Source of the DNA: Nilaparvata lugens
Lineage: Eukaryota > Arthropoda > Insecta > Hemiptera > Delphacidae
DNA length: 64,000 bases
Direction: 5' to 3'
Assembly (NCBI RefSeq): GCF_014356525.2
Contig: NC_052512.1
Span: 978,797 to 1,042,796, forward strand
Shown: positions 43,478 to 52,800 of the stretch, piece by piece
Layout of the letters: the number at the start of each line of letters is the position of its first letter
Position numbering within the stretch: the first letter of the stretch is position 1
Notes under the pieces: model-generated
The model's database searches: none
What the model was told of the DNA's origin: nothing
What the model saw: the letters and a program-made list of their open reading frames with translations, nothing else
Position numbers and translations under genes: made by a program

Positions 43478-45607
43478 TATGAAAGTATTTATTGCCAAAA
43501 TCAAAAGTACATAAAAGCAGCAATATCTGTAACTAGAATTAAAACATAAAAAACTAAGTACAATATGTGTGTTTATAAATCATTAATCCTAACTCATCAA
43601 TTTGGCAGACACTAGCATAAGATAAACTTGTTCGCTAGTGCCGGTTGCATCAAACAAAATAGGTAACCGAAAATAAATACAAAAGATAGCAAGACAGTGC
43701 TGGCCCATCTTCAACTAACAGCATACAAAAACAATAAATCCAAAATCAACAATCCATATTGTAGGTAGGCCTACTTAAAATTTAAATAAACTCTAATTTG
43801 AAAAATTAATTATCCTTTATCCAGTTGTTAACCAGAAATTTCTTTTTCTTATTCAGATTATATCTGTTAAACACAAACTCCCCCGGTACTATATTAATTA
43901 ATCTTGTGCTGATATAAATCAATTGCCTTCGAACTATTTTCAAGTTAGCCGGATAGGTCCAATACCTATTTAAGGTTCCAGGACGAAGGGCATAAGGATT
44001 ATCCTGAACAACAAAATAACCTTCATATTTATTTATATATTTAAGAAGCCTGAATATATATAGTTGTCTCACAGTTTTTACTTCTAATTCCTTAAAAATT
44101 AGGTCCGTGCTGTAAATTCTTGGCTTCATTAAAAGCGTTTTGACGTGACAACGTCTTATAAATTGGTTTGCCGGGAGACACTTCAAGAAACTGCGTTACG
44201 TTCCCACGTTATGCGCTCACAATGAGAGCGAGTGAGAGCGTTCGTTTCGGTTCACGGTCGTCTGGAAAAGAGCACGAATAGGAGCAGTGGCGAGCAATGC
44301 CGCACCAACCCGAAGGCATTCACCTGGAGAGAGAGTGAAACGGAGCAGTCAACCTGCGCAGGCGCCGCAAGCAATCTCCTGCGACTGCGCCACTAATTCA
44401 AAATGTCAAGTCAATGGTTGTCTCTCTCGCTCTTAGGTGGGCGCGGGCTAACCATGCCCGAGTGGAAGGGACGCGTGCCTCTCACTCACTCTCATTGTGA
44501 GTTATTATTTCATCCTTCTTCCTACTATAAGAATGAATATTCACATTAAAATTATTTTACCACTCAAAGTCGTTGTCACGTAAAACTTTCGCCCGTATAC
44601 CGACTTTACAGGAAACCATGCAATTTTTTTTATAATTAGTTTTTGTGCTACAAAAATTTGGTTCAGATGTCAATCTAATGCACCTCCCCATATGGTTATC
44701 CCATCACACCCAAGTATTTAACACTTTGTTCTCTTTTTATGGGCACACAATCACAGTTATCTTCATTCCCGTAATAGTTACAATTCGAATGTATTCTAAG
44801 ACTGTGATTCTCATCTGGTTTGCCAATACTATTTGCGGAAAATATCAAGTACTTGGTTTTGCCTACATTTAAACTTAAGGTATTTACATCCATCCATTTT
44901 TTAACGAAAGCCATATCCTTCTCTGCTTCTTCAAAAGTGCGGTACCAAATATTCCCTGAGAATATCACACCAGTGTCATCGGCGAATGACACAATCTTAC
45001 CGTTACGTAATTTTAACTTCAGCAGATCATTTACATACAAAATGAAGAATAACGGCGATAACACCGTACCCTGATGAAGACCAAAAGATGTCAATTTTTC
45101 AGTGTTACCTTGATATACCTGATATCTATCCTGTAAATAGCTCCTAATAAGACATAGTGGTAGTCCTCTTATTCCATACCTGCCAAGTTTCGAAAATAAA
45201 TTTTTGTGAGGGACCGTATCAAACGCCTTGGATAAATAAAAAAGAACTGTGAGTGTTTTCCTATTATCATTCAAGCTCTGAGATATTTCTCTCGTAAAAT
45301 ATATTAATGCATCTTCGGTGCTTCTATCAGACTGAAAACCATATTGATTTTTGTCTATTATGTTATTTTTAAAAATAAATTTTATGAGCTGGTCCTTTAT
45401 TATTTTCCCAAATATTTTTGTAATATTAGAGAGCAGACTTATAGGTCGATAATTTATTGGATCGCAAGGATCACCCTGTTTTAGAATAGGCTTGATTATA
45501 GTTACTTCAAGTGTGTTTGGGAATTTCTCTGTTTCAAAGCATTTGATTCTTAATTGAGACGCCGAGTAGTAAACATCGTTGTATAGAGCTGCGGAACATA
45601 ATAACAA
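43478..45607 (-). pseudogene. LINE C: reverse transcriptase and carboxy-terminal part, inactive
   Basis: Minus-strand LINE, with an RT frame at 44696-45607 (303 codons) and a carboxy-terminal frame at 43806-44186 (DLIFKELEVKTVRQLYIFR). RT motifs are NYRPISLLSN, YGFQSDRSTEDAL, LHQGTVLSPL and SFADDTGV. Motif A reads FYLSKAFDTV: the first catalytic Asp is Tyr. After the RT comes a Cys cluster (DNCDCVPIKRE) like that of the helicase-bearing LINE, so the two belong to the same clade. The region between RT and carboxy terminus is broken by a MITE (44216-44501). The 3' UTR ends at about 43478 with AATAAA and an ATACTTTC repeat. The upstream part of ORF2 is at 52340-52800, beyond the inserted element. 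Confidence 0.8.
44216..44501. mobile_element. 286-bp GC-rich MITE inserted in LINE C
   Basis: Terminal inverted repeats CTCACAATGAGAGCGAGTGA and, inverted, CTCACAATGAGAGTGAGTGA (one mismatch in 20). The interior is clearly GC-richer than all its surroundings (for example GCGCAGGCGCCGCAAGC near 44357). No clear target duplication could be fixed. No coding capacity. Confidence 0.7.
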
Positions 45608-45675
45608 TTGTGTTGTGATTATTGCAAAAGTGAGTTATAGCTGATAGACTAGTGAATCCATCCGTTACGTTACGT

Positions 45676-46698
45676 ATGAGATCACCGGTCAGGGCGCCAT
45701 ATGGATTAATTCCGGAATTCGAGGAAGTGGGAGAAGAGCAGGAGCAATCATCATCTTCAGGACAGGTCCAGGAGTCCCCTACAATGGAGAAACCAGCAGA
45801 GCAATCTACATCAAAGGTAATCAGCAATGAATTTTCAAAGGATTATGAACTTTTAAAGCAGATAAAGCACGAACTTAATCTATGGGCGGAAGCGGAATAT
45901 GAAAAAAGAAAAGTTCTGAGGGCTGATTTCGACAGATTTATTTCAATAACTAATGAATTGTCGGAAACAATCGTCAAACTAGAAACAAGGTCAGTGACAA
46001 TTTCACAGCTAGCGGCAGGGCTCGGAAACACTAATAAGGGTATTCAGGAGTCCCTTAAAAATATAAATAAGGCGGTAGACACTATGAAACAAAGTGAAAG
46101 TAGGCCTATGTTAAGCTATGCTGATATGGTGCAGTTGCCAGGAAAATTGAAGGACAATAAAGTTGCAGGGAACAATGTTAGGAAACTACAACCACAGGAG
46201 CATATAGTTATGTTGCAGCCAGTCAAACCAGTCCTGAACGAAGTGGAAAACAGTAGAATTATTAAAAATGTATTGCGGGAGAATATCAAAAACAAAGACG
46301 ATATTAGAGTTAAAAAGACCGTGAATGTTAGAGGAGGTGGCCTCATGATTTTTCTGAATTCGGAAGAGGACAAGAAGAAAATCATTGAAAATGAGGCGTT
46401 GAAGACTGGAAATATGAAAAATTTGAAAATAGTTGAACCACAGAATAGGAAGCCACGTTTAATAATTTACGATGTCCCTAGTGATTTAAGCAAAGAGGAA
46501 CTAGCCGAGAGTATTTTCAACAAAAACTTTGCTATCTCTGAACTAGGAAAAGAATCATTTTTAAACGGATGTAAGCCTCTCTACAAGGTTGGACCAAAGA
46601 ACAAGGAAGTAGTTCATTGGATCATTGAATGTGAGCCCGAGATAAGAAGAATTCTAATAAATAGGTCACGTTTCAAAGTATTGCAAAAAAGAAAGTGA
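45676..46698 (+). CDS. LINE ORF1, gag-like RNA-binding protein (frame-shifted before its zinc knuckles)
   Basis: 340 codons from the first ATG (MRSPVRAPYGLIPEFEEVGE). An acidic, Ser/Gln-rich amino end is followed by a predicted coiled-coil-like region rich in Leu, Glu and Lys (about residues 50-130), then a basic region and a part that could be an RRM-like fold (about residues 215-330: GGGLMIFLNSEED, PRLIIYDVPSDLSKEELAES). This is the usual architecture of Jockey/R1-type ORF1 proteins, which coat the LINE RNA and accompany it to the target. The frame ends at TGA 46696-46698 immediately after an A6 run (46685-46690), but the next frame continues into two zinc knuckles. The true protein therefore probably extends to 46885, with a one-base error or mutation, or programmed frameshifting, at the A run. 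Confidence 0.8.
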   Translation: MRSPVRAPYGLIPEFEEVGEEQEQSSSSGQVQESPTMEKPAEQSTSKVISNEFSKDYELLKQIKHELNLWAEAEYEKRKVLRADFDRFISITNELSETIVKLETRSVTISQLAAGLGNTNKGIQESLKNINKAVDTMKQSESRPMLSYADMVQLPGKLKDNKVAGNNVRKLQPQEHIVMLQPVKPVLNEVENSRIIKNVLRENIKNKDDIRVKKTVNVRGGGLMIFLNSEEDKKKIIENEALKTGNMKNLKIVEPQNRKPRLIIYDVPSDLSKEELAESIFNKNFAISELGKESFLNGCKPLYKVGPKNKEVVHWIIECEPEIRRILINRSRFKVLQKRK

Positions 46699-46885
46699 AG
46701 TCTGCGGTCACTGTGCTGAAGATCATAGTACTAAAGATTGTCCAAATACCGCCAAGGAAGCAATATGTAGCAATTGTAAGAAGAACAAAAAGCCATCAAA
46801 TCATAAAGTTCACGATCCACAATGTCCTAGCCACCAGAAATCATTGCAGCAATTGATTGAAAAGACTAATTATGGGATTGTTTAA
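46691..46885 (+). CDS. ORF1 carboxy terminus in the next frame: two zinc knuckles
   Basis: In the frame one base on from ORF1, the sequence encodes CGHCAEDHSTKDCPN (CX2CX3HX4C) from 46703 and then CSNCKKNKKPSNHKVHDPQC from about 46772, a second Cys/His cluster. It ends at TAA 46883-46885. Gag-type knuckles at the end of ORF1 are standard in this LINE group and bind nucleic acid. The helicase ATG (46872) lies inside the last codons, giving a 14-nt overlap. Confidence 0.75.
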   Translation, partial: ESEVCGHCAEDHSTKDCPNTAKEAICSNCKKNKKPSNHKVHDPQCPSHQKSLQQLIEKTNYGIV

Positions 46886-48809
46886 AAATATATATTGTTC
46901 TCAAAAAATAATAAATCAGACTGGAAATATTGTGATGGATATTAATGAAATTTTAGGTAATTTGAATTATACATATAGAGTTCAACAAAGATCAAAAAGT
47001 AGGACATCACTCGTATTTAATTTTGGAGGTTACACTGACCTGAATATTTCCTTCGCCAGCGTAAAAAACGGAAAAGTAAATATTTCCAAGGGCATTGCTA
47101 CCGTAGTAAATAGGAAATGTATGAGCATTGATTACTTCAATAGTCTAACTACTATATTTTCACAAACAAAGCAAATTGATGCGTCGGTGAAATTCGACGA
47201 GACATTGAAAATACTCAATTTGTTTTTATTGACAGATAATAGTAACTTGCTTTCCAATCTAGAAATATTACTATCTATGATCGATGAATGGGCTTCAGAT
47301 AAACAAGCTCTGACAGTTGGAATTGATTTTTTTGGAACCATGGCTGATGTATCTTGTATTGATCTCTTAAGTACTGTCTTGGCAACAAAACACATTAAAT
47401 ATGTGTTTTACTACAAGGGTATAAATAATCTTACATTTTTAAATATTCCAGAAGAGAAAAACAATGAGAAACCATGTCCAACGGGATACTTACCTGAAAA
47501 ACCACCCAAACATGAATTTATAAATAGTATGCTGGAGCTCAGAAATCTTCTGAGTCAACATGATCAGATAAATTCTATTATTTACTATGAAATTCTGACT
47601 AACATTACAAAAAAAAACTTATTGAGCTCTTATTCGTACCTAATAGAGATAAAGCGTAAAGAGATGAATATTTATGATAATAATCTAAGAACATTTCTAT
47701 GGCCAACTAGGAAAAGTTATAGAATGGGCTTCTGCTTGGATAACGAAGGAACCTACGTGGAATTCAACGAGAGTAATAAAAGATTCTTAACAAAAGAAAA
47801 ATACATTCTTGTTAGTAGAGATACACAACTCATGTTAAACGGTGAGCTGTATCAGAAAATATCATCAATTGACATTTCTGCTTCAAGTCTTCCTAATATT
47901 ACGTGGATAGATGGTGTGCCAGGGTGTGGAAAGACGTTTGAAATACTGAACCAGCATAAACCAGGAATAGATTTAGTTCTCAGTCAAACAAGAGCAGGAA
48001 TCAAAGACATCAGAGAGGCTGTCATTCATAAGTACGGTAAGGATTACTGTAGAAAGATAATAAGATCAGATTACAGAACCGTTTCATCTTTCATTATAAA
48101 TGGAGTGGGCAAGAAATATCATCGTGTCTTTATAGATGAGGCTGTACTGATGCATGCTGGCTACATTGGTTTCATTGCGAAATTATCAGGATGCTCCGAA
48201 GTTTTCCTACTTGGTGATTCTAAACAGATTCCTTACATCGAAAGGAGTGGACTGAAAGTTAGATGGTCTCATCCTTCAGTTTTTTGTGAGTCCACACGGA
48301 AAGTGACTTTAACTAGAAGATGTCCGATCGATGTATGCTGCGCACTATCCAAATTCTATGGTAAAATTGAAACAACTAGTGGAACTCTTCGCTCAATTAG
48401 GAAGACCATCTTTAACGGCGGTCTTCCACAGCTTGATCCAGAAACACTTGTATTAACATACACGCAGAATGAGAAAAAAATTATTCAAGAGTTACTAGGT
48501 GACAGGATTGATAAAACAATAAAAATTCACACGATACACGAAGCACAAGGTCTTACTTATAGAAATGTTATTCTAGTGAGGACAAATTCAAAGGATCTAG
48601 AGATCTATAACAGTGAAAGTCATGTGATTGTAGCACTCAGTAGGCACACTCATAGTTTCAACTATCTAACAACAGCGGAGAATGATCTCATATCATTGCT
48701 TATAAAAAACACATTAAGCTTTGATGATAAATATATAATGAGATGGCAGAGGAAAATAGAGGAGAACAAGCATGGAGGGGTGCGTATGAATAAGCATGAT
48801 GATGAGTAA
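46872..48809 (+). CDS. Superfamily-1 viral-type RNA helicase encoded by a LINE
   Basis: 645 residues from ATG 46872. The carboxy half (about residues 345-625) is a complete SF1 helicase of the alphavirus-like plus-strand RNA virus type: Walker A GVPGCGKT (348-355), Walker B FIDEAVLMHAG (Asp422-Glu423), motif III LLGDSKQIPY (448-454), RRCPIDV (motif IV region), IHTIHEAQGLTYRNVILVR (motif V region, Glu557 to Gly560) and ALSRHTHSF (motif VI, Arg591). All catalytic residues are present and there is no internal stop. The amino half (1-340) resembles nothing I recognise; no methyltransferase motif is evident. Expected activity is NTP-driven RNA unwinding; a role in the LINE cycle (RNA remodelling, target-primed synthesis, or countering RNA silencing) is inference. 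ATG overlaps the ORF1 tail and the stop overlaps ORF2 by 14 nt. A longer frame from TTG 46857 exists but ATG fits the overlap pattern. Confidence 0.93.
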   Translation: MGLFKNIYCSQKIINQTGNIVMDINEILGNLNYTYRVQQRSKSRTSLVFNFGGYTDLNISFASVKNGKVNISKGIATVVNRKCMSIDYFNSLTTIFSQTKQIDASVKFDETLKILNLFLLTDNSNLLSNLEILLSMIDEWASDKQALTVGIDFFGTMADVSCIDLLSTVLATKHIKYVFYYKGINNLTFLNIPEEKNNEKPCPTGYLPEKPPKHEFINSMLELRNLLSQHDQINSIIYYEILTNITKKNLLSSYSYLIEIKRKEMNIYDNNLRTFLWPTRKSYRMGFCLDNEGTYVEFNESNKRFLTKEKYILVSRDTQLMLNGELYQKISSIDISASSLPNITWIDGVPGCGKTFEILNQHKPGIDLVLSQTRAGIKDIREAVIHKYGKDYCRKIIRSDYRTVSSFIINGVGKKYHRVFIDEAVLMHAGYIGFIAKLSGCSEVFLLGDSKQIPYIERSGLKVRWSHPSVFCESTRKVTLTRRCPIDVCCALSKFYGKIETTSGTLRSIRKTIFNGGLPQLDPETLVLTYTQNEKKIIQELLGDRIDKTIKIHTIHEAQGLTYRNVILVRTNSKDLEIYNSESHVIVALSRHTHSFNYLTTAENDLISLLIKNTLSFDDKYIMRWQRKIEENKHGGVRMNKHDDE

Positions 48810-51800
48810 TAATAACGTGCTGGATGTGGCAAATGAACTTGATTCCGTGGATGAGATAGAGGACAGTGTGATTGAGGATAAACAACAACTCCACGTTGCT
48901 CTTCAACACTCTAATATAACTGTATTTTCTCTCAATATCAGAAGTATTAGGAAGAACTTCGATGACCTGATGATTCAACTACAGGATATGTCCCATGATT
49001 TCGATATAATAATACTAACAGAATGCTGGATCAAAAGAGATTATACACAGAAGCAACTGAAGGACTACAATATTTTTCACTCTTTGAATAATCGTACTCA
49101 AAATGATGGAGTAATTGTATATGCAAAGGAAAATCTCAATGTACAATCGGTAGAACTAAATATCAGACAGGCCAACGTTCTTCATCTACGACTTCAAACA
49201 TCAAAGGAGAGATATAATATATTAGCAGTGTACAGATCACCTTCCTACGCCAGCATAACAGAGTTTTTAGAGGACTTTGAAACAGTGCTTGGTAGACTGA
49301 GAGGTCAACTTATTATTTGCGCAGGAGACTTCAACATTAATACGCTACAGCCACATCAGCATTATCAACTTGATGATTATTACGACTTATTGAGTGAACA
49401 CGGTTTGAAGAACTGCATTAAAAAGGCTACCAGAGTAACAGCGGGAACGTCTTCTTGTTTGGATCATATGTTGACCAACTGTAAAAGTAAAATCCATCCA
49501 ATCGTGTATCACTCGAGTATCACAGACCACTTCATTACAATTCTTGGACTGGAAGAACATCAGTTAGACAGAACAAATGGGGATGAACAGAGCTCAACTA
49601 ACTGTCAACTCTCAACTAACTGTAAATCTGTCAACTTGAACGGCTTGAGGAGAGGACTGCGAGTGGAACAATGGACGGAGGTTTTTGAGTCAAATAACAC
49701 AGACTCAGCTTACGAAAAGTTCCTAGAAATTCTACAAAAACATATGGAGAGCAATACACATCATTACAGACAAAAGAAGAGGATCAAGAGCATAAAACCA
49801 TGGATAACACGAGGACTTATCTCAGCTATAAGAACAAGGGATTCTCTAAATAGAAGAAGGAAGCTGGACCCAGAGAACGGAGAACTCGCTAACTACTACC
49901 GAAGATACAGAAATACACTGACGTCACTCATCCAAACTACAAAAGAAAATTATTTCAAGATGCAACTAAATGAAGCAAACAATGATGTAAGGAAGACATG
50001 GAAAATAATCAAGGATGCTACAGATTCAGATCAGAAAAAGGATATACAACTGAATGCTTTGAAAATTAATGGTGACATAGTCACACTGAAAGATAATCCT
50101 AGAGAACTATTGAGTCATGTAAATAATTTCTTTGTTAATATTGGAGAGAGTATGGCTAACAAAATATCTGAGAGTCTGAATAAAAATATTAACGAAATTA
50201 TAGCAGATAATGTACCAGAATTGCATGTACAGAGTAATATGTTTCTTTTCCCCATAGATGAAAAGGAAATAATAAACACAATTGATTCTTTACACATCAA
50301 TAGTGCACCAGGCCTAGATGGATTAGATAACAGGACCTTGAAAGGAATAAAAGATTTAATTTCTAAGCCTTTAACTCATATTTTTAATCTGAGCTTGTTA
50401 TATGGTACTTTTCCAAGAGCAATGAAGCAAATCTGTGTCAGACCTATACATAAAGCAGGCGATAAACTAATTATTAGTAATTATAGACCTATTTCACTGA
50501 TTAGCAATGTATCAAAAATTTTAGAAAAACTAGTTAAATCAAGATTAATAAGCTTTTTAGAAATTAATAATATTCTTTCTCCTAACCAATTTGGCTTCCG
50601 CAAAGGTATAAGTACAGAATTAGCTGTACTAGAATTATCAAAATTTGTAACTAGCAATTTAGAGGAAAAGAATAAATGTCTAGCAGTATTTTTAGATTTA
50701 GCAAAGGCCTTCGACTCTGTTTCCCATGACTTATTAATAAAAAAGCTTGAGGCAATAGGTATAAGAGGAGTGCCACTTGAATGGTTCAGATCCTACCTCA
50801 GCAATCGACAGCAAAAAACAAAGGTTGAGAACCATATGAGTGCAGAGGGTTCCATGAAGTTTGGAATACCTCAAGGAACAGTTTTAGGACCAATTTTGTA
50901 TTCGATCTTTGCAAATGAGTTGTGCTCCATTCAAATTCAAGGTAGAGTTATAGCCTTTGCTGACGATACAGCACTCCTTTTTCAAGGAAAAAACTGGGAA
51001 GAAGTGTTCCAAACAGCAGAGATAGAACTCACAAAAATCACTAGTTGGTTAAGAAATAACTTATTGTCATTGAATTCAGAAAAAACAAAATTTTTAGCTT
51101 TTTCTTTAACAAATAGCACAAAACCACACATGACAACAATGAAGCTCCATAATTGTGATAGAAATTGTAACAATAATTGTAATTGCCCACTAATAGAACG
51201 CTCTGACAATATAAAGTATTTAGGAATAATAGTAGATGATTCATTGAAATGGAACAAACACATAACATATACAACTGCCAAAATAAGGAAGCTTATATAC
51301 AAATTCTATCAATTAAGGCGTATCATAGACAAAGAAATGTTAAAAACTGTATACTTAACATTAGTTGAATCTCTTTTAAGGTACGGTCTGTTAGTTTGGG
51401 GTGCAGCTAACTTCAGTTTTATAGATCCATTATTTAAAACTCAAAAACGCATTTTGAAAATAATGGGAAACAGGGAAATCCAGTTTTCAACTGTAGAATT
51501 ATTTATAGAAAATAGAGTACTCAGCGTTAGGCAATTGTATATATTGTTGTTATTAGGGTATATGAAAAAACATCAAAATAGGAACCATATCATAAATCAT
51601 AGCCATAATACTAGAATAAGAGAACGTTACAATCAAGAAGTACCAAGAATGAATACAGCGTTTGGGCAAAGATCACTAGGATATTTAGGGCCTACAATAT
51701 CTAATAGAATACCATTAGAAATCAAAGGAGAGGAAAATTTCAATAGGTTCAAAAGAAAAATTAGACATTGGTTATTCAGTATTGGGATACAAAGTAGTGA

Positions 51801-51825
51801 GGAACTAATAGTAAGTAGGATTTAG
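48796..51825 (+). CDS. LINE ORF2, AP-endonuclease and reverse transcriptase, intact
   Basis: 1009 residues. Endonuclease (about 35-250): LNIRSIRKNF, TECW with Glu76, GDFNIN (177-182) and TDHF (Asp244, His245). RT (about 480-760): NYRPISLISNVSKILEKL, FGFRKGISTELAV, motif A LDLAKAFDSV with Asp634, GIPQGTVLGPILYS, and catalytic FADD (721-724). A Cys cluster follows (C787, C791, C795, C797, then PLIER and IKYLGI), then a carboxy domain with TVYLTLVESLLRYG and SVRQLYI. There is no RNase H domain. The protein would nick the target and copy the LINE RNA in place. Start: three in-frame ATG codons (48796, 48799, 48802), all inside the end of the helicase ORF. The clade is Jockey-superfamily-like; exact placement needs a tree. 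Confidence 0.93.
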   Translation: MMMSNNNVLDVANELDSVDEIEDSVIEDKQQLHVALQHSNITVFSLNIRSIRKNFDDLMIQLQDMSHDFDIIILTECWIKRDYTQKQLKDYNIFHSLNNRTQNDGVIVYAKENLNVQSVELNIRQANVLHLRLQTSKERYNILAVYRSPSYASITEFLEDFETVLGRLRGQLIICAGDFNINTLQPHQHYQLDDYYDLLSEHGLKNCIKKATRVTAGTSSCLDHMLTNCKSKIHPIVYHSSITDHFITILGLEEHQLDRTNGDEQSSTNCQLSTNCKSVNLNGLRRGLRVEQWTEVFESNNTDSAYEKFLEILQKHMESNTHHYRQKKRIKSIKPWITRGLISAIRTRDSLNRRRKLDPENGELANYYRRYRNTLTSLIQTTKENYFKMQLNEANNDVRKTWKIIKDATDSDQKKDIQLNALKINGDIVTLKDNPRELLSHVNNFFVNIGESMANKISESLNKNINEIIADNVPELHVQSNMFLFPIDEKEIINTIDSLHINSAPGLDGLDNRTLKGIKDLISKPLTHIFNLSLLYGTFPRAMKQICVRPIHKAGDKLIISNYRPISLISNVSKILEKLVKSRLISFLEINNILSPNQFGFRKGISTELAVLELSKFVTSNLEEKNKCLAVFLDLAKAFDSVSHDLLIKKLEAIGIRGVPLEWFRSYLSNRQQKTKVENHMSAEGSMKFGIPQGTVLGPILYSIFANELCSIQIQGRVIAFADDTALLFQGKNWEEVFQTAEIELTKITSWLRNNLLSLNSEKTKFLAFSLTNSTKPHMTTMKLHNCDRNCNNNCNCPLIERSDNIKYLGIIVDDSLKWNKHITYTTAKIRKLIYKFYQLRRIIDKEMLKTVYLTLVESLLRYGLLVWGAANFSFIDPLFKTQKRILKIMGNREIQFSTVELFIENRVLSVRQLYILLLLGYMKKHQNRNHIINHSHNTRIRERYNQEVPRMNTAFGQRSLGYLGPTISNRIPLEIKGEENFNRFKRKIRHWLFSIGIQSSEELIVSRI

Positions 51826-52150
51826 ATTTAAGCAGTATTCTTTTTAAATAAGGTAATTTATATGTAGAAAATAGTACCTCGGTTTAGTATCTTTGTACTA
51901 GGTGATGCTTAGGGTAATAGATATAGTTTTAGATTTTTGGAATTTTTGTATTATCTGTTGTAGCATAAATTAGTATTAATTTGATGATAACCTCGACACA
52001 TATATTATATAGTGAGGTATCATTTTTGTAAACACTGAATATTGTTATATTATTGAAAATATATGAAAAAAATATGTAATGTATGAATTTATGAATAAAC
52101 TCCTCTGGATGTGTCGTCCAACATCCAGAGAAATTATTATTATTTTTAAT
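51826..52150 (+). other. 3' UTR and tail of the helicase-bearing LINE
   Basis: AT-rich untranslated region. AATAAA lies at 52094-52099, just before the hairpin, and an ATT-rich tract (about 52131-52145) forms the tail. The following ~190 bp (52150-52339), rich in AGGAGG-type purine repeats, belong to neither recognised LINE and remain unassigned. Confidence 0.6.
52103..52130 (+). promoter_or_regulatory. Perfect 10-bp stem-loop before the LINE tail
   Basis: CTCTGGATGT, an 8-nt loop (GTCGTCCA), then ACATCCAGAG, a perfect stem ending directly at the ATT-rich tail. In stringent LINEs the RT recognises a 3' stem-loop in its own RNA, and this hairpin is a good candidate for such a signal. Confidence 0.65.
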
Positions 52151-52339: not shown

Positions 52340-52800
52340 TAAACAGAAGGAAGAAACTCAAGCTCTCTATTATCACTGTTTTTCGGTATTTGTTGAGCAT
52401 GACTTTTACCCACATTTACGAAATATTTGTTCAAAACTTCTGCACTGATATCAATGTCATCATTCTTTTCCTTTCTATTATTAATTGCGTCGTTTATATA
52501 TTGCCAAAGCTTCCGTTTATTTCCCTTATATTGATCTATTTTTATTTTGTAATAGTTTGCTTTGGCTGAAGTAATGGTATTATTTAATATGTTTCTATAG
52601 GTTTTATAGTTATTTTTTAGTTGAATATTAAGGGTTCCTTCATCATTTTTTATGCAGTTTATCCCTTATTTTGATAGATTTTATTAGACCAATAGTTATC
52701 CAGGGTTTCGATGGTTTATCCCTATGTGATACAGTTAAAGTACGTGTTGAGTCTTCAATATTCATCTGTAACATAAATCTCAAATAGTTGAATTTGAAAA
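52340..52800 (-). pseudogene. LINE C, upstream fragment (between endonuclease and RT)
   Basis: On the minus strand, DKPSKPWITIGLIKSIKIRDK (two readable pieces) is followed by frameshifted remnants and ends with GKSHAQQIPKN near 52400. This linker precedes the RT in LINEs of this clade; the helicase-bearing ORF2 has the equivalent IKPWITRGLISAIRTRDSL. The fragment stops where the unassigned purine-rich block begins, and about 50-60 codons are missing before the RT at 45607. Confidence 0.7.

Follow-up and report, generated by a model that had tools for sequence, protein, structure and literature searches.

Long interspersed nuclear elements (LINEs) usually have one gene or two, and mobile DNA that keeps an RNA-virus gene under selection is, to our knowledge, rarer still. 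Two published sets of insect elements come closest to the one that we describe here. Lazareva et al. 2015 (PMC4686597) described TRAS/R1 LINEs with a tobamovirus-like superfamily 1 helicase (SF1H) at the C end of the second open reading frame (ORF2), beyond a spacer more than 300 residues long. Morozov, Lazareva, and Solovyev 2017 (PMC5563155) reported SF1H-carrying Jockey-like LINEs in Hemiptera and Orthoptera and, in Nilaparvata lugens, dozens of SF1H ORFs near or overlapping a Jockey-like ORF for endonuclease and reverse transcriptase (EN-RT); they termed the helicase ORF “ORF1,” noted one contig in which it overlaps ORF2 by 2 nt, placed the Jockey helicases on a branch separate from TRAS, and argued for an independent origin. 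In this paper, we examine a stretch of 64,000 nucleotides of N. lugens DNA (the window; NC_052512.1, positions 978,797 to 1,042,796 of the forward strand), which holds a near full-length LINE with three ORFs in a row: a gag-like ORF1, a viral-type helicase, and an EN-RT. The copy belongs to subfamily B, one of four that we named A to D.

Our reading, to which we give a probability of roughly 0.6, is that this is a family of three-ORF LINEs with a captured virga-like SF1 helicase, that three proteins are made from one RNA via two successive stop–start reinitiations, and that the helicase serves the element. The part of this that can be observed consists of the order of the ORFs, their overlaps, the intact motifs, the near-identical copies, the helicase beside every copy checked, and the mark of purifying selection. 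The core of it, a viral helicase ORF beside a LINE EN-RT in N. lugens, was published in 2017, and the novelty that a preliminary description of this DNA claimed for a separate helicase ORF in a different clade is therefore not supported (PMC5563155). The likeness extends to the species, to a viral SF1H single-domain ORF beside or overlapping that of the EN-RT, to the dozens of copies, to complete SF1H motifs, and to a helicase ORF that lies upstream of the EN-RT and overlaps it (here by 8 nt in A to D). There, however, the helicase occupies the first ORF, whereas here a gag-like CCHC ORF1 precedes it (which the earlier paper may have missed), the two overlaps measure 11–14 nt and 8 nt, and a further domain stands at the N terminus of the helicase. 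None of these three features is stated in the consulted portion of PMC5563155, and none of the titles and abstract openings that we surveyed points to an account of any of them, with Repbase and subscription papers lying outside that search. What we add, then, is the three-ORF layout with its double overlap, the extra domain, and a test of selection. The TRAS/R1 elements share with ours an insect LINE and a tobamovirus-like helicase, but theirs sits at the C end of ORF2 (PMC4686597), whereas the present one is, as the preliminary description held, an ORF of its own between gag and EN-RT, not fused to the latter. The features of the window copy are as follows.

45546..52150 (approximate to a few bases), + strand: whole LINE copy, near full-length; its 5' end is common to copies L011, L014, L015, and L016, and its (ATT)n tail is common to sister copies
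45676..46698, + strand: ORF1, gag-like, truncated here (340 aa from the first ATG)
46665..46666, no strand: site of an 83-bp deletion in ORF1, relative to 7 of 7 sister copies spanning the site
46872..48809, + strand: helicase ORF, 645 aa from the first ATG; Pfam PF01443 (Viral_helicase1), E 6.7e-40
46926..47429, + strand: additional domain at the N terminus of the helicase protein (roughly residues 19–186), tentatively macrodomain-like
47460..48761, + strand: tobamovirus-like helicase unit, residues 197–630
48796..51825, + strand: EN-RT ORF, 1009 aa from the first ATG; Pfam matches to RVT_1 (5e-39) and endonuclease domains
48802..48809, + strand: 8-nt overlap of the helicase stop with an EN-RT ATG, of equal length in subfamilies A to D
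52103..52130, + strand: hairpin near the 3' end, its 10-bp stem free of mismatches, with the (ATT)n tail after it; from sequence and fold

ORF coordinates and Pfam matches thus agree with the preliminary description on the three collinear plus-strand ORFs, the 645-aa helicase ORF, and the 1009-aa EN-RT. Its assertion that the helicase is of viral type with all SF1 motifs also stands: both the PF01443 profile match and the fold identify an alphavirus-like SF1 helicase, and the key motif residues are invariant in 23 aligned proteins that are 32–50% identical to the window protein. The nearest sequences in the Protein Data Bank (PDB) are viral (a tobamovirus replicase helicase at 2.1e-36, viral helicase 6jim at 7.3e-16, and chikungunya nsP2 at 2.9e-15), and for the AlphaFold model (mean pLDDT, a per-residue confidence score, 82.4), the nearest folds are helicases of tomato mosaic virus (ToMV) and of the chikungunya type, with Upf1, Sen1, and IGHMBP2 ranking lower. 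A host origin, which had been named as something to look for, was rejected by this comparison of similarity (it is not a tree): sequence and fold are nearest to virga-like viruses rather than to host helicases, and after the viral PDB matches come reductases, at E 0.016 and above. The helicase was likely captured, to judge from its sequence, from an insect virga-like RNA virus; two scans of IMG/VR viral contigs confirmed no relative. It is about 25% identical to the ToMV replicase helicase (PDB 3vkw), which is part of a replicase, whereas the LINE protein is free-standing and bears an extra N-terminal domain of about 190 residues. That domain is tentatively macrodomain-like, and tentative it stays, because 21 members, searched at E up to 10, matched 19 families in all and no macro family was one of them, in a search where the HMMER filters drop most weak matches. 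Three proteins (P0017, P0018, and P0019) form a more distant helicase branch, at 32–35% identity, with about 100 extra N-terminal residues.

How large is the family, and does the helicase always travel with it? We searched the N. lugens genome (1.085 Gb in 6870 contigs) with a helicase profile and scored the best 150 of 807 candidate places; as these are the best-scoring ones, the sample leans toward intact copies. With 150 places matched, the helicase ORF is more than a product of chance. In 144 of the 150, no stop interrupts the helicase core, and in 49, the open helicase frame runs to at least 640 residues. Measured against the B helicase, identity is 50% for that of A, 48% for that of D, and 45% for that of C, and aligned pieces of eight B copies match the window at 98.5–100%. 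For the EN-RT, with 45 candidates scored out of 55,685, the search gave 47 rows, and 18 of them, the window copy included, span residues 1–1009 without a stop. The family is young and multicopy. An ORF1 search, with 98 matches scored of 1703 candidates, found a listed helicase 0.9–2.9 kb downstream of 49; when 12 of the remaining 49 were fetched, all had helicase sequence downstream, locus L030 only in part, so that helicase sequence adjoins all 61 of the ORF1 copies examined. It also adjoins, at least as its C-terminal part, every one of the 34 EN-RT matches beginning at residue 1 (20 with a listed helicase 123–125 bp upstream, 4 from the ORF1 fetches, and 10 fetched separately; 13 rows starting after residue 1 were left out of this count); in 4 of those 10 fetched loci, where 1.3 kb was looked at, only the last 29–144 helicase residues are visible. 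Other copies in the three-ORF order, for which the preliminary description had suggested a search, thus exist, with ORF1–helicase–EN-RT overlaps in A to D, and sister elements that lack the helicase while sharing both flanks were not found among the 61 ORF1 and 34 EN-RT copies. L030 was considered as such a sister and rejected: it has lost most of its helicase by a deletion that runs into the EN-RT and is a deletion derivative.

The junctions between the ORFs are what suggest how the proteins might be made. In intact copies, the overlap of the ORF1 stop with the helicase ATG is 14 nt in B, 14 in A, 11 in C, and 14 in D (the last counted from a Met later than the first), and the helicase stop and an EN-RT ATG overlap by 8 nt in each subfamily; this double overlap suggests, from sequence, serial termination–reinitiation. 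Overlapping stop and start codons of this sort recall SART1, for which stop–start translational coupling between LINE ORFs is described (Kojima et al. 2005, as cited in PMC5972666), although SART1 has one junction of the UAAUG type, and here, there are two longer overlaps with coupling that is putative. The ORF1 proteins end in T-N/D-Y-G plus 1–3 residues in 12 of 19 relatives (two of the 12 from N. lugens), as an embedded start codon would favor. In two cases, ORF1 and helicase appear to come from the same contig, to judge by equal contig size and source (P0149 with P0006, 4454 bp; P0150 with P0007, 3508 bp). A calicivirus-type UGGGA motif, sought in the 100 nt upstream of the stops, was discarded as an explanation; in B and D, it occurs only within the ORF1/helicase overlap, and in A and C, it is absent, and even UGGG is found in none of the subfamilies in the 100 nt upstream of the helicase/EN-RT stops. 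Further ORF1 relatives occur in the wasps Ampulex compressa and Mischocyttarus mexicanus (P0153, P0154, P0155, and P0158), and the C terminus of P0155, TDYGK, is compatible with an overlapping downstream start.

Is the helicase kept because it does something? Comparisons between subfamilies are at or close to saturation in synonymous divergence (dS). Within A, C, and D, the ratio of nonsynonymous to synonymous change (dN/dS) of the helicase is 0.21–0.54 (one further C pair has a single synonymous change), which is similar to that of the EN-RT (0.18–0.44), with ORF1 at 0.12–0.65. Neutrality was rejected in the three helicase pairs tested (p 0.0009, 0.0008, and 0.002, the last two sharing copy L021). 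The ratio thus stays below 1 within subfamilies (a value near 1 would have spoken against the preliminary description), and these substitution patterns point to purifying selection to keep the helicase. They make it unlikely that the helicase is a passenger of no use, carried along by the overlap of the ORFs, an idea that would draw on the hindrance that overlap with both neighbors poses to clean loss and on the existence of some amplified copies with a broken helicase frame; the invariance of the key motif residues at 32–50% identity speaks against it as well. Nor do the ratios favor a host that profits from a LINE-made viral helicase or its RNA in antiviral defense, a role proposed in PMC5563155 and PMC6338049. 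Constraint is shared with the other ORFs of the element and is found among recent A, C, and D copies, a pattern that suits selection acting on the element better than selection on a single host locus, and we regard the defense role as quite improbable.

What would a LINE do with such a protein? On the reading that we prefer, the helicase would work for the element rather than for the host: three proteins are likely translated from one RNA by two stop–start reinitiations in succession, and the helicase may act as an ATP-driven unwindase within the ribonucleoprotein of the element, where it would open up duplex or folded stretches in the element's own RNA. The template could thereby remain accessible to target-primed reverse transcription, and Dicer could be deprived of its substrate, with the N-terminal domain as a putative substrate-binding module brought along from the virus. 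A possible but clearly less probable account has the helicase suppress silencing by binding small RNAs with no need of unwinding, as proposed for tobamovirus and TRAS helicases. PMC4686597 cites tobamovirus helicase domains as silencing suppressors, and a TRAS helicase of P. xylostella moderately promoted the leaf movement of a suppressor-deficient plant virus; its own authors call that assay “not unequivocal,” and the key ATPase residues, invariant in 23 proteins, exceed what a pure binder of RNA ought to require.

Trees of the helicase and of ORF1, with the four subfamilies and two outside pairs, both give full support to a split that sets A, B, and D apart from C and those pairs. In an EN-RT tree (47 rows, quick method), in which the proteins are mostly unnamed and no named clade references are included, the family falls in three places (A with B, D with P0025, and C with P0067), and the same region holds other proteins, some of them named from moths and butterflies. 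Either a single old capture followed by divergence or losses, or an exchange of halves, would fit this pattern. A fuller account, which we hold only tentatively, would make the element a tricistronic LINE with two serial reinitiations and a captured cassette of macro-like domain and SF1 helicase directed against RNA silencing, whose ORF1–helicase half has moved between EN-RT lineages.

Several points weigh against the idea of a three-ORF LINE served by its helicase. If P0010 and P0025 lie on one contig, the five-row trees of EN-RT and helicase conflict in topology; the contig size common to the two proteins, 5415 bp, is suggestive only, and with 19 helicase and about 120 EN-RT contigs, we estimate that a chance match in size is not unlikely, so the conflict is a lead and nothing firmer. 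Within B itself, helicase dN/dS is 0.52–0.66 on 6–7 changes, with other B pairs lacking any synonymous change, and at such short range, the ratio blends changes from before and after insertion. The moderate effect of the P. xylostella helicase in plants counts here too. Finally, there are broken copies. A 401-aa helicase frame occurs in 7 of the 150 scored copies, and L015 and L016, the two of the seven that were examined, have lost one A from the A9 run at 47609, with the EN-RT still open; the run (47609–47617) is A8 in L015, L016, and L046. This frameshift may be an assembly error, a slippage hotspot, or a broken variant that was mobilized. The A7 run at 48474 carries a helicase frameshift in L033, L042, L046, L047, and L050, and further recurrent ones lie in T6 and A6 runs; these copies may be assembly errors or may have moved with the help of others. 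If the copies with the 401-aa frame are real, broken-helicase copies have spread, and the helicase may be dispensable in cis.

The window copy is itself damaged. Its ORF1 is not intact: 83 bp after 46665, present in all seven spanning sisters, are absent (a base-by-base reading against L010), and the resulting frameshift leaves 340 aa in place of 430. Full ORF1 in subfamily B has 430 residues with three CCHC knuckles at its end, their cysteines and histidines invariant in one copy each of A to D, and the deletion removes part of the first knuckle and, by shifting the frame, costs the window ORF1 the other two. Residues 1–335 are 99% identical to the 430-aa ORF1 of L014, the CCHC region is missing, and no Pfam match rises above the cut-off. 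Since the sister ORF1 overlaps the helicase ATG, the 173-nt gap that separates the two ORFs here is a defect of this copy and not the layout of the family. With a truncated gag ORF and its first overlap destroyed, we predict that the copy is defective.

At its ends, the element has no target-site duplication evident by eye in the copies inspected, and its 3' untranslated region as a whole does not fold unusually strongly (z −1.85). At L010:1–1343, parts of a second B copy abut the tail of the first, possibly by insertion into the element's own (TTA)n tail. The window copy was inserted into an older broken LINE on the minus strand (43788–45544 and 52366–52786), which is related to subfamily C (its RT is 53% identical), lacks about 60 residues at the junction, and has no match upstream of about residue 306.

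The young copies belong to a pest insect for which RNA interference is a routine tool, which makes it testable whether a viral helicase helps a LINE to copy itself or to hide from silencing, and in the same insect, one can test whether a eukaryotic RNA is read by two reinitiations in succession.
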